A DNA stretch of 64,000 bases. Source: Crossaster papposus (taxonomy: Eukaryota > Echinodermata > Asteroidea > Velatida > Solasteridae). The translations under genes were made by a program, and so were the position numbers. Location of the stretch: contig JBAIAA010000352.1 of assembly GCA_037893245.1 (NCBI GenBank), positions 1,612,001-1,676,000 of the forward strand, read 5' to 3'. Position 1 is the first letter of the stretch, and each line of letters begins with the position of its first letter. Shown here piece after piece: positions 40,946 to 46,121 of the stretch. The notes beneath the pieces were generated by a model. That model was given only the letters and a program-made list of their open reading frames with translations. It was not told the origin of the DNA and searched no databases.

Positions 40946-41029
40946 GTCTTATCTTTTCTTTTACCTATACAAATTATACAACAAAACACCTTTTGATTTG
41001 GCGATAGCAAAGCACGGAGACACCTCTAG
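40946..41029 (-). repeat. Ngaro split direct repeat B2 (3' terminus)
   Basis: 84-bp copy of B1 forming the far end of the element. A 368-bp unique stretch separates it from A2; I see no coding capacity in that stretch. Confidence 0.88.
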
Positions 41030-41397: not shown

Positions 41398-41571
41398 TTA
41401 AAAATTTGAGTGCCTCGTATGTAGTGCTTGCTAGAACTGATCTGAATACCCCTATTCTTCTCTATTTAAACCCTCTCATGCCCTTATTACATAACCTCTG
41501 CACCTGCTACAGGTGCTCGAATTCCCAAGACAATTATTTCCCGCTATACTTCGAAACGCGGGAAATGTATA
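41398..41571 (-). repeat. Ngaro split direct repeat A2
   Basis: Second identical copy of the 174-bp A repeat, directly adjoining B1; the B1-A2 junction should equal the junction of a circular intermediate. Confidence 0.9.
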
Positions 41572-41655
41572 GTCTTATCTTTTCTTTTACCTATACAAAT
41601 TATACAACAAAACACCTTTTGATTTGGCGATAGCAAAGCACGGAGACACCTCTAG
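41572..41655 (-). repeat. Ngaro split direct repeat B1
   Basis: 84 bp, identical to 40946-41029. It lies between the recombinase stop and A2. Confidence 0.9.
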
Positions 41656-41900: not shown

Positions 41901-42905
41901 CTACAGACCCAGTTTCTTGGTCACACTTAACCTCTTTTCGAGCGAGTCTTCTATATATCCATCTTTACTCTCATCCCGTCTCCAGCGCCCGTGTCTCTTT
42001 AGACAGCGCTCTTCTACCTCGTTGTTGGCCGCAGCCGTTACTCCTCCCGCTCTGAGGGAATGTAAACCTAGATTTAGGTTAGGTGCTACCGAAGATAGCA
42101 TCTTGATTACACACTCCCTGGTCCTTGTGTAACTTAACTTTTTGTCTTTGGAAATTAATTTACAACCGTTCCCTGATCTAACAGCGGGTCTAAATAAGTA
42201 TCGTGTAGTTGTATTATCCATACCTGCGGTCGACATATACCTTAGCAACATAGCATAAGGACATGCTGAAGTGGAACCCTTTGCAATTACTACTTCTTTT
42301 CCACATCGATATTGATCCGTCTTGCTTTTCTCTATCTCAACAGTGAAATAATCATCTGACATAACAATATTATTACAACGTAAAGAACTCAATTCGTTAA
42401 ACCGAAAGAAACCTGCAAATGCTAACGTTATCATACACAAATCTCTAATAACCAATAAATCTGTTTCCTCAGAATATCTATCACAAAGCTCTACTATGAT
42501 ATCTGATGTAACTACATCCTTTTTCTGGGTCTTATGGCCTGTTGTGCGTTTAGCCGATTCGTGAAGATTTTTCACAAATGAATTATTCGTTGGGTCGACT
42601 AAACCATTCATCTCGTGTGCCCATTTAATACTGTAAATGACTGATGCAATGACATGATGAGACGCACCCGTGTCCAGGAGCTCCGTCAGATACACAGCAA
42701 TGAGAATTGGCTGGGCTGGTAATGAGGTGTATGCGGATCGGGCACAGAAGTTCTGCCATTTCTTGAAACTCCCAAAGTATTTCTTGACCGTAGCGTCACT
42801 CCTGGAAGCCATCAAGTGATGACACATCCGGTCGACCAGTTTGTCGTCCGCCACTCCAACAGTCTCCAAAGCTGCGGAGACGTTGTACCTCAATCCTATC
42901 TCTGT
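41901..42905 (-). CDS. Ngaro ORF3, tyrosine recombinase (integrase)
   Basis: Phage-integrase-fold recombinase that would insert the circular DNA copy. Numbered from the TTG at 42893 (330 residues), catalytic residues are visible as R164 (GFFRFNEL), H278 and R281 (LHSLRAGG), H301 (HGRW) and nucleophile Y313 (DGYIEDS). The spacing and the LRAGG/HGRW wording fit DIRS/Ngaro recombinases. The frame differs from pol, and no ATG precedes the conserved region: the open stretch begins next to a pyrimidine-rich ...TTTTTCCTACAG at about 42906-42918, which reads as a splice acceptor. It may therefore be expressed from a spliced RNA. The stop is at 41901, 246 bp before repeat B1. Confidence 0.85.
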   Translation of the reverse strand, partial: TEIGLRYNVSAALETVGVADDKLVDRMCHHLMASRSDATVKKYFGSFKKWQNFCARSAYTSLPAQPILIAVYLTELLDTGASHHVIASVIYSIKWAHEMNGLVDPTNNSFVKNLHESAKRTTGHKTQKKDVVTSDIIVELCDRYSEETDLLVIRDLCMITLAFAGFFRFNELSSLRCNNIVMSDDYFTVEIEKSKTDQYRCGKEVVIAKGSTSACPYAMLLRYMSTAGMDNTTTRYLFRPAVRSGNGCKLISKDKKLSYTRTRECVIKMLSSVAPNLNLGLHSLRAGGVTAAANNEVEERCLKRHGRWRRDESKDGYIEDSLEKRLSVTKKLGL

Positions 42906-42966
42906 AGGAAAAATTCAAAACAGCGTTAACCAATCCCCTCCAGCAATTGCAATAATACTGGATAAT

Positions 42967-45210
42967 TCAGTAAACTAGCTTCATAGCAATCATCTTGAAT
43001 TTCAATGTTTCCTCAGAAAAAATGCCGTTACTACCTTGACCTTTAATGATCACATACTGCTGTGGTAGTATCATGCTATTTTGTACAAACGGCCTAAAAT
43101 CTTTACTTTCCGTCACCAGAAAAGGCCAAAACGGTGCCGATTCCCACATCGGAATAATCAATGTACCTTTAGCTTTTTCAGTTTGCATTTTTAACAATAC
43201 TCTCAGAATTAACCTGGGTGGAGGTACTAGCCAATTTACATTATTTGCCCACATCTGACCGAAAGCGTCAATTCCCTCCGTTCCTGGGCACCACCATCTC
43301 GAGTTGAATCTTTTGCACTGATTATTCAAATTAGATGCAAATCTATCCACATCATGTGGTCCCCATTCTTTATCCAGTAATCTATAAATCCATGGTTGTA
43401 TTTTCCAACCATCACTGTCAGTGGTTCTACTCAACAAATCTGCTTTAGTGTTGTTATTTCTTCTGATCCACTCTGGTTCAAGAATTATAGAATTCTTTTC
43501 ACAAAAATTATTCACACTCAAAGAGATTGTTTGTAAGCTAGACTTCTTACTTCCGTTATTCAGCACCCTTTTTACATTTTTGTTATCATTGAAACATCTA
43601 ACTCTTTTGTTCTTCAACAAATCCTCATTACTTTTAAGTACTCTGTGTACAGCCTCCGTTTCTCTCCAAGTGGAGCTGCTCCTAGACTCTTCTTTGTCCC
43701 ATGACCCTACTACTTCGCTACCCTCAACCGCCTGATCCTTGTCCAAAGGATTTCCCACACAAGGGGTTGGTGTACTACCGCATCCGACAATGGATGGATC
43801 ACTGCCTTTAGTAAAGGCTCCCGCACAAAGGGATGGTGTACAACCACATCCAACAATGGATGGATCACTGCCTTTAGTAAAGGCTCCCGCACAAAGGGAA
43901 TTGACATAAACGTCTTTAGTAATAACTCCTGAACAATGGGACACATACCCACCATATCCCACAGCGGATGCGTCACTAAACACTTGTATCTCACATGAGT
44001 CTACATTTTTTATACTTAAACCTTTGTCATTTAGGGACTGCACACAGCGTTTCCAGAATAACGCCTCATCAAGTGCTTCATCACTCATCAATACAGGTGC
44101 ATTCCAACTCGCACGGGTATCAATACTGCGATACAATGCTCTGGTTTTTAATCTTACCACTTTACCGATTGAATTCGCAAGGGAAATTATTTGTCCAACT
44201 ACAGAAGCTAGGAATCTAACAGGAACCAGCTTAGTTCGACTGGTGTTAACCTGATAAATTAAAGAAGTCAAAGCGAGAATTACTCTTTCAATTCTGTCTG
44301 AAGTAGCATGTACTAAGCCTGTATTGGTGTGCCAGTTGAAACCCAACCAAGTCACGTGTTGTGAAGGTTTCCATTCACATTTTTCGTGTGCAATCAAAAA
44401 CCCGAAATCCTGCAAGGACAATTTAACAGTATTGCTAAACCTTTCAGCTTGTTCCATGCTGTGGCTCCCTCCTAGGCCGTCATCTAAATACATGATCACC
44501 CTATAACCTTGTGATCTCCAGTGGGTCACAACCACTCTCATTACTTTTGTGAATATGTACGGCGCTGTAGCCAACCCAAACGGGAGCACATTAAAATGAT
44601 AGAAAACACTTTTCTCTCCGTAATTCCATGAAAAACCTAGATATTTTCTGTGATCTCCGAATATCCCAATGTGATGATAGGCAGACTTTAAGTCAAAAGT
44701 GAACAAAAAATCACCCATTTCAAACATCTGTTTAGCAACTGTCACATCTTCGTACTTGAATTTAAACTTGGCCAAGTGAGGATTAATATTTCTGCAATCA
44801 AGAACCAATCTCCGTTTTCCATTCTTATTAAATGCTACCGTTAAAGGATTAACGATGTATGGTTGTGAATTTAATTCCGAGATGCATCCTTTACCAAGTA
44901 ATTTCTGTATTTCTTCAACAACAAATAAGGGGTTTTCTTTTGCCGACTTGTTATTATCTGAATACATGGTATCTGGTAAAACTCTTAATGGAATTTTATA
45001 CCCTTCCTTTATTACATTTCTGATAAACGGATTAACTTTTATTTTGTCCCACTGGCCCAAAGCTTTCTGTAATCTTCCAACTGGTGAAATTTGAACCAAA
45101 ATCTCCCTATTATCCGATACATTAGCGGAATACAAACTTGCGTCAAACTTTTTCATTTTATCTTCATTCAGTACAATTCTGTTATTCACATCTTCCAAAT
45201 CGGAAAACCG
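42967..45210 (-). CDS. Ngaro ORF2, reverse transcriptase plus RNase H (probably Gag-Pol readthrough product)
   Basis: Open in the Gag frame directly after its UGA stop. There is no ATG at the beginning; the first in-frame ATG is about 17 codons in (MKKFDASLY). Numbering from 45198, RT shows LVLDCRNINPHL, FDLKSAYHH (first catalytic Asp about 169), LPFGLATAPYIF and YLDD at 237-240. RNase H shows FSDASAVGYGGY (Asp about 409), WRETEA (Glu), CFNDNKN (Asp) and NNNTKADLLSR. A 66-bp (22-residue) tandem duplication lies between the first RNase H Asp and the Glu. Catalytic motifs are complete with no internal stop, so the copy may be active. Stop codon at 42967-42969. Confidence 0.88.
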   Translation of the reverse strand, partial: RFSDLEDVNNRIVLNEDKMKKFDASLYSANVSDNREILVQISPVGRLQKALGQWDKIKVNPFIRNVIKEGYKIPLRVLPDTMYSDNNKSAKENPLFVVEEIQKLLGKGCISELNSQPYIVNPLTVAFNKNGKRRLVLDCRNINPHLAKFKFKYEDVTVAKQMFEMGDFLFTFDLKSAYHHIGIFGDHRKYLGFSWNYGEKSVFYHFNVLPFGLATAPYIFTKVMRVVVTHWRSQGYRVIMYLDDGLGGSHSMEQAERFSNTVKLSLQDFGFLIAHEKCEWKPSQHVTWLGFNWHTNTGLVHATSDRIERVILALTSLIYQVNTSRTKLVPVRFLASVVGQIISLANSIGKVVRLKTRALYRSIDTRASWNAPVLMSDEALDEALFWKRCVQSLNDKGLSIKNVDSCEIQVFSDASAVGYGGYVSHCSGVITKDVYVNSLCAGAFTKGSDPSIVGCGCTPSLCAGAFTKGSDPSIVGCGSTPTPCVGNPLDKDQAVEGSEVVGSWDKEESRSSSTWRETEAVHRVLKSNEDLLKNKRVRCFNDNKNVKRVLNNGSKKSSLQTISLSVNNFCEKNSIILEPEWIRRNNNTKADLLSRTTDSDGWKIQPWIYRLLDKEWGPHDVDRFASNLNNQCKRFNSRWWCPGTEGIDAFGQMWANNVNWLVPPPRLILRVLLKMQTEKAKGTLIIPMWESAPFWPFLVTESKDFRPFVQNSMILPQQYVIIKGQGSNGIFSEETLKFKMIAMKLVY

Positions 45211-45939
45211 TCAGAAATCACTTATCTTATCTGCCTTGGCGGCATCCATCTTGTGAGTACACTCGTACTTCCAATGACCGGGTTGTCCGCAACCGAAACA
45301 AAGCCCTGGCTTGCCCTTGCCCGCTGTGGCTGTGCGGGGTGCCGCTGCTGATGAAACCGCCGAAGTATGCCGCTCCGATGGCCATGAAGAAAACCTGGTG
45401 GTCTTCCTGCTTTTCTTTGCCTGTTCTGTCTTGAGCTTCTTCGAGGCCCTGGCTTCGGCCCTGTACATCTTCTTCTCGTCTTCTGAGTCAGAAGCAAGAG
45501 GGTTAGTTTCGTACTCCGTAACTATTCTCCATCCTAGATCTGATCCATCAGCCATTCTGATTAGTTTTTGCCTGTGGTTTATTAGCTCGATACCTTCGGA
45601 AATGTCTGTTGATGCTTGCTTGATGTTAGCTCTGCCTTCCAGGTGCGACTCTGCGTCCCTCAGCTTGCTCGCTACCTTGACGTTAAACTTGAACTGATCT
45701 TCGCTGCTCTTGCGTTTGAAAGAGTAACCATCGTTGGCCAAAATACTGCCCTGAATCTTCGTGAGCTGGGTGTCAGATAAGTCTTTCTGACTACAGCTGA
45801 TCTTGCTCTCGAGAGCAGAAAGTTTTGACGTTATAAGACCGTCGAGCTTGTCCAACATGGTGGCCTGTGAACCGGCTACTGCTTGTCTGACTCGGTCGTC
45901 AATGGAGCTGGCGCTGGCCTGTAGCTGTGTGTGCTCCAT
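45211..45939 (-). CDS. Ngaro ORF1, Gag-like protein with CCHC zinc knuckle
   Basis: 242 residues starting at an ATG only nine bases inside repeat A1. The C-terminal part carries one zinc knuckle (CFGCGQPGHWKYECTH) preceded by a basic, Ala/Ser-rich stretch, as expected for a nucleic-acid-binding Gag. The N-terminal half looks helical and charged with no family I can name. It ends in ...ADKISDF then TGA (45211-45213), and the downstream pol frame continues in the same reading frame straight after that stop. Role by family: packaging the element RNA. Confidence 0.85.
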   Translation of the reverse strand: MEHTQLQASASSIDDRVRQAVAGSQATMLDKLDGLITSKLSALESKISCSQKDLSDTQLTKIQGSILANDGYSFKRKSSEDQFKFNVKVASKLRDAESHLEGRANIKQASTDISEGIELINHRQKLIRMADGSDLGWRIVTEYETNPLASDSEDEKKMYRAEARASKKLKTEQAKKSRKTTRFSSWPSERHTSAVSSAAAPRTATAGKGKPGLCFGCGQPGHWKYECTHKMDAAKADKISDF

Positions 45940-45947
45940 TGTGTAAT

Positions 45948-46121
45948 TTAAAAATTTGAGTGCCTCGTATGTAGTGCTTGCTAGAACTGATCTGAATACC
46001 CCTATTCTTCTCTATTTAAACCCTCTCATGCCCTTATTACATAACCTCTGCACCTGCTACAGGTGCTCGAATTCCCAAGACAATTATTTCCCGCTATACT
46101 TCGAAACGCGGGAAATGTATA
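45948..46121 (-). repeat. Ngaro split direct repeat A1 (5' terminus)
   Basis: 174 bp identical to A2. In minus-strand orientation it forms the 5' end of the element and abuts the gag start, so it probably holds the promoter. It contains a GC-rich inverted pair (TTTCCCGC ... GCGGGAAA) near its outer edge. Confidence 0.9.

Follow-up and report, generated by a model that had tools for sequence, protein, structure and literature searches.

Organization of the element

The window analysed here is a stretch of 64,000 nucleotides of Crossaster papposus DNA, and its minus strand carries an element with gag, pol and tyrosine recombinase (YR) coding regions and direct repeats (Table 1). In a profile search, the zinc finger of Gag scored above the cut-off of 20.8 bits, the reverse transcriptase (RT) of pol reached 69.3 bits with RVT_1, and a third frame gave a match to Phage_integrase. 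A Dam-like methyltransferase match follows the RNase H part. It scores 24.0–25.3 bits in the family of the window element and 27.8 bits in the sister family F2, with E-values of 3.5e-5 to 2.4e-6, which is weak against a cut-off of 28.1 bits; we lean towards the presence of a methyltransferase domain at this position. The inner repeat pair sits downstream of YR and gives the split-direct-repeat arrangement A1...B1A2B2. Such repeat pairs were also found in the sister loci L045–L048, L050 and L051, and none in L049.

Table 1. Features of the element in the window (positions count from the first letter of the window)
Feature	Position	Strand	Basis or remark
A1, 5′ split direct repeat	45948..46121	-	one of a 177-nt repeat pair; A1/A2 mismatch 1/177
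gag ORF, 242 codons, ATG at 45939, terminates in TGA	45211..45939	-	ORF reading
Predicted 5′ splice site GAAG/GTAT, phase 1, intron from 45593	45590..45597	-	sequence only
CCHC zinc knuckle of Gag	45253..45300	-	PF00098, 22.5 bits, residues 214-229
AAGATAAGT, conserved 9-nt motif (K-I-S), U1-like apart from A at +1	45220..45228	-	
TGA separating gag and pol	45211..45213	-	sequence reading, family alignment
Codon following the stop: CGG, with AGG or CTG elsewhere in the family	45208..45210	-	
In-frame pol ATG nearest to the stop, 54 nt past it	45154..45156	-	ORF reading
pol, in the gag frame, with RT and with weak matches to RNase H and a Dam-like methyltransferase	42967..45210	-	profile matches
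Predicted 3′ splice site of YR, TTTTTCCTACAG, phase 1	42902..42913	-	acceptor comparison
YR exon, first 24 codons without ATG	41901..42901	-	Phage_integrase match
B1 repeat	41572..41655	-	B1/B2 identical
A2 repeat	41398..41571	-	repeat comparison
B2 repeat, 3′ end of the element	40946..41029	-	repeat comparison

The original prediction had assigned the element to Ngaro. According to passages of PMC4157794, split direct repeats are common to Ngaro and PAT-like elements, Ngaro by definition lacks a methyltransferase and PAT has one, and a Gag zinc finger is, among PAT elements, a feature of Pat1. The window element shares with Ngaro the split direct repeats and the order of Gag, RT, RNase H and YR, and differs by its Dam-like match, which lies under the Pfam curated cut-off. 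Because of the split direct repeats, the zinc knuckle of Gag and the weak methyltransferase match we prefer PAT-like to Ngaro, and the original assignment appears doubtful. With caution, the element may be regarded as a young full-length YR retrotransposon, with PAT-like as the best fit. This naming is based on domains and repeats, the RT tree described below being built from rows of the same genome.

Two repeated segments were seen within the coding regions. In the RNase H part of pol, two in-frame units of 66 nt, each of 22 residues, stand in tandem at 43753..43884 of the minus strand, and the five further copies of the family have them too. The final codons of YR (GTGACCAA.AAAC..TCTGTA, 41924-41893) recur twice downstream as imperfect copies (41832-41801 and 41749-41718).

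The stop codon between gag and pol is a family trait

On the minus strand, the end of gag reads GAT TTC TGA CGG TTT TCC. Pol is open in the frame of gag for 747 codons (45210-42970) and closed by TGA, and 18 sense codons separate the gag stop from the first ATG. This reading confirmed three points of the original prediction, namely the direct succession of TGA and CGG, the common frame of gag and RT, and a lack of ATG for about 17 codons after the stop.

A search of the genome (1.02 Gb) yielded six copies with 98–100% identity over the junction. The five other copies are 98.55–99.40% identical to the window copy (Blast). The right ends of homology agree to 4 nt in all five and the left ends to 19 nt in four; C418 misses about 100 nt of A1. 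Since the six copies are located on different contigs, they represent separate insertions. All six carry TGA at the end of gag, which rules out a private mutation of the window copy. The alignment of copies, which had been suggested as a check, thus upheld both the stop and the shared frame, and the TGA between gag and pol is a real trait of the family. The following codon, on the other hand, varies: the window copy and C825 have CGG, C502, C279 and C567 have AGG (Arg to Arg) and C418 has CTG, so that UGA-CGG does not hold as a conserved signal. Pol is open over the 747 codons in five of the six copies, the exception being C502, where it is frameshifted, and the pol ATG is kept in all six. Further defects were seen in C567, where a 7-nt deletion just upstream of the stop throws gag out of frame, and in C279, where the gag ATG is gone; both also have 2-nt deletions in YR. 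No relatives beyond this genome were found in viral_contigs or genome_contigs.

Sister families and RT tree

In a protein search with Pol, 120 of 4716 candidates were scored and 30 were retained as loci; junctions were inspected in these 30 loci and in later gag-side matches. The families F2 (C198, C781, C306, C364, C130), F3 (C531), F4 (C31, C599, C1095) and F5 (C528, C114) are stop-free at the junction in 11 of 11 copies. Several of these copies carry stops or shifts elsewhere, and C599 has a small shift between the knuckle and the 9-nt motif. In C198, a sister copy in the same genome, gag and pol form a single open frame of 884 codons. Because gag runs into pol in one frame through a stop-free junction in four sister families, the shared frame of the window family is not a product of chance.

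Two more families contain a stop at or near this position. F6, a single decayed copy (C22), has an in-frame TAG-ACA directly after the knuckle. In F7, an in-frame TGA-CTA is present in C722 and C517 (the latter holds two identical duplicates and was counted once), versus TGG-CTA in C833. Clean convergence of F7 on UGA-CUA was considered and is weakened by this TGG copy. The two copies of F8 (L058, L059) are broken beyond the knuckle. Among 11 more distant loci (L028–L038), the knuckle lies in a frame other than that of pol in nine, and none was found in two. In three loci that were read further (L053–L055), the N-terminus of gag, too, lies apart, which hints at an intron within gag. As a separate observation, gag pieces of F4 occur in tandem arrays, mostly with a spacing of 1554 nt (C1095:97856-117641 and C738:371135-382702, locus L008), and in the single stretch inspected, L008, there are internally deleted copies (gag, end of pol, YR) such as a circular intermediate might yield.

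In the RT tree (28 rows, midpoint root, two C502 pieces excluded), the window family and F7 group with F2, F3 and F4 (100/99), with the branching order within this group unsettled, and F5 and F6 fall outside. The simplest reading would be that the stop was derived from a single-ORF ancestor; alternatively, an older stop may have been lost in F2–F4.

Substitutions in pol suggest selection

Substitutions in pol were counted in all six copies, C502 being read in the frame of the window copy, and those common to at least two copies were taken as changes that presumably passed through transposition. Shared substitutions comprise one amino-acid-changing and six silent changes, compared to 28 changing and 12 silent private ones (Fisher p=0.009; p=0.020 with the post-stop codon excluded). 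Under neutrality, one would expect about 71% of changes to alter the amino acid, 24% to be silent and 4.6% to create a stop. The counts are low, and the window copy and C825 are set apart from the rest by five of the seven shared changes. In gag, shared (4 changing, 1 silent) and private (18 and 4) substitutions do not differ, and there is no sign of constraint. The open pol alone says little because the family is young. The excess of silent shared changes, however, suggests selection on Pol during the spread of copies with the TGA. It points to a lineage that carried the TGA and still had a functional Pol. Some bypass of the stop is likely, and we consider it most likely that the stop is bypassed in some manner.

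This pattern bears on a different view, in which the stop is a defect of the master copy and the family makes just Gag and YR, with Pol borrowed from related elements. All copies are indeed young (0.6–1.45% from the window copy), their private changes are unconstrained as would be expected, and C198 with its open gag and pol is part of the same genome. With a borrowed Pol, however, the pol of the window family should drift, whereas its shared changes are silent in six of seven cases and its frame has stayed open in five of six copies. A master-copy defect is therefore improbable in our assessment.

A predicted intron connects gag to YR

The YR frame opens just upstream of a pyrimidine-rich CAG. 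A phase-1 acceptor of this kind was found in 14 of 16 copies (window family 5/6, F2 3/4, F3 1, F4 2, F5 2, F7 1); the pattern was not found in C502, and a small deletion has put it out of phase in C364. The CAG is exactly 74 nt upstream of a conserved Met in 12 of the 16 copies. Acceptor loci beyond the window are L045–L051, L008 and L062. Since the first 24 codons of YR lack an ATG and the phase-1 CAG acceptor is conserved, an exon upstream of YR is very likely.

A scan of the window element for donors, using a position-weight table, began 250 nt upstream of the gag ATG and extended to the acceptor; it gave no strong GT donor (>4.5 bits). The mid-gag site GAAG/GTAT is weak by this table, yet it is the best candidate. 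Its phase fits, and it is present in 17 of the 19 copies of F1–F7 in which the region is seen, being absent from C722 and the decayed C599. When six families were aligned by codon, 129 residues other than Met and Trp were invariant, and 14 of these also kept an invariant codon, among them the Glu-Gly of this site as well as a Lys-Ile-Ser (AAG ATA AGT) close to the gag end. Strong donors in other families were rejected as candidates; a few lie inside pol and are not common between families.

The predicted intron, 45593-42902, contains the C-terminus of gag, the UGA and all of pol, and its removal to give a Gag-YR RNA is likely. An intron that provides Pol had been named beforehand as an observation that would speak against readthrough. 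An intron does probably exist, but it would serve YR and not Pol. Spliced, pol-less copies were not found in the genome, where the 5′ part of gag matches at >=97% just six places, the full-length copies.

A conserved motif upstream of the stop

The motif AAGATAAGT, which encodes the Lys-Ile-Ser mentioned above, is present in seven of eight families and in 20 of 23 copies, including those at the loci L044–L052, L056, L057, L060, L063, L007 and L008. It is missing in C567 and in both copies of F8, in the latter apparently through a 5-nt loss, and it is absent from all 11 of the more distant loci (L028–L038). Across the seven families it is invariant to the third codon base, within an otherwise unconserved gag–pol linker. 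The motif also arises by chance, because C22 has a second copy in pol. It matches a consensus 5′ splice site but for the A at +1.

A conserved donor-like sequence just upstream of the UGA could indicate a spliced RNA from which the stop is removed, joining gag straight to pol. AAGATAAGT, however, has AT instead of GT, it is equally conserved in families with no stop to remove, and reading the linker by eye gave no convincing acceptor between the motif and RT. Splicing of gag to pol is thus highly improbable. As a donor for YR, the motif is mismatched in phase. An AT-AC intron at AAG/ATAAGT was ruled out as well, as the YR acceptor ends in CAG (F1–F5, F7) and as the break after AAG is in phase 0 versus phase 1 of this acceptor. 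The motif also resembles the 3′ terminus, where B ends in AAAGATAAGAC; this is probably due to chance, the corresponding sequences being CTAAGAC in F2 and AGATAAGAC in F4.

Proposed expression of Gag, Pol and YR

The best explanation, which we hold with moderate confidence, would be a PAT-like element that uses UGA readthrough for Gag-Pol and a spliced RNA for YR. On the unspliced RNA, termination at the UGA would give Gag and readthrough a minor Gag-Pol, in the manner proposed for the Tj1 group of fission yeast. YR would be made from a spliced RNA in which an N-terminal portion of gag precedes the YR exon, pol and the UGA being inside the intron. The stop is probably leaky, because the family keeps a UGA in a shared frame while most close relatives are stop-free.

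The readthrough of the original prediction, giving Gag plus minor Gag-Pol, was in part supported. In its favour are the TGA in 6/6 copies at separate sites, a common frame throughout the clade, the 11/11 stop-free sister junctions, the mostly silent shared changes in pol and the TGA-CTA in two copies of F7. Against it count the varying codon after the stop, with CGG in 2/6 copies and UGA-A, which is no recognised leaky context, in half of them (3/6), the TGG sense codon in one of three F7 copies, and a case for selection that rests on just seven shared pol changes. RNA structure 3′ of the stop did not exceed shuffled sequences (local folds only; z 0.02, 0.03 and 0.51), and a weak hairpin predicted a few nucleotides past the stop in the window copy is not above shuffles either.

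The pol ATG 54 nt after the stop also counts against readthrough, since Pol could be made separately, either by reinitiation or internal initiation at this ATG or from a shorter mRNA driven by an internal promoter. The ATG is kept in 6/6 copies and lies upstream of the first block conserved between families, and the gag UGA junction of Candida Tca2 contains a minor promoter and by itself directed no readthrough in S. cerevisiae (PMC2194720). In four sister families, on the other hand, gag runs into pol, hence no separate start is needed there, and we regard a separately made Pol as rather unlikely in the window family.

A more elaborate form of the readthrough proposal includes the 9-nt motif. 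AAG/AUAAGU, which departs from a full U1 match solely at +1, would serve as a decoy 5′ splice site and keep part of the RNA unspliced. One transcript would then give three proteins through two switches, Gag and minor Gag-Pol by UGA readthrough and Gag(N)-YR by splicing. This scheme as a whole is tentative and, in our view, unlikely. The gag gene of Rous sarcoma virus contains a negative regulator of splicing, and the decoy role proposed for AAG/AUAAGU in the window family would be its counterpart.

Comparison with known systems

We found no description of an in-frame UGA between gag and pol of PAT-like elements in the literature searched. In the open-licence literature, no paper joined Ngaro, stop codon and readthrough. 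By word search, 'stop codon' is absent from the YR-element papers PMC4157794, PMC9210276, PMC6681497 and PMC3783388, and 'stop' from PMC3266345. Such a stop may have been described before, for instance in the original Ngaro and PAT papers. The passages searched likewise gave no account of how the Gag:Pol ratio is set and the recombinase expressed in YR retrotransposons.

Compared to the echinoderm form of PAT-like elements, Pat1, as described in passages of PMC4157794, the window family has the same A1...B1A2B2 repeats, Gag zinc finger and order of RT, RNase H and methyltransferase followed by YR. It differs by the in-frame UGA between gag and pol. In type II readthrough of viruses, UGA is followed by CGG or CUA, often with a 3′ stem-loop about 6–12 nt after the stop in many but not all cases (passages of PMC3542737 and PMC11166343). 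UGA CGG is shared by the window copy and one other copy, and UGA CUA by two of three copies of F7. In contrast to the viral cases, the context of the conserved UGA varies among the copies of the window family, and no stem-loop was found among local folds. Tca2 resembles the window family in that a UGA separates gag and pol, but it is a yeast LTR element whose junction alone did not direct readthrough in the S. cerevisiae experiments noted above.

A close parallel is found in the Ty3/gypsy elements Tj1, Tosmo1-3 and Tcry1 of fission yeast, which carry an in-frame TGA-CTA or TGA-CTG between gag and pol and have the single-ORF relatives Tf1 and Tf2 (passages of PMC10085805). The window family likewise combines an in-frame TGA with single-ORF relatives. 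Those elements are LTR elements with an integrase, and their TGA-CT is strictly conserved, unlike the context in the window family. The window clade thus parallels Tf1 and Tj1 among LTR elements, and the presence of single-ORF and UGA-split versions within one clade of one genome provides a natural experiment on the origin of recoding.
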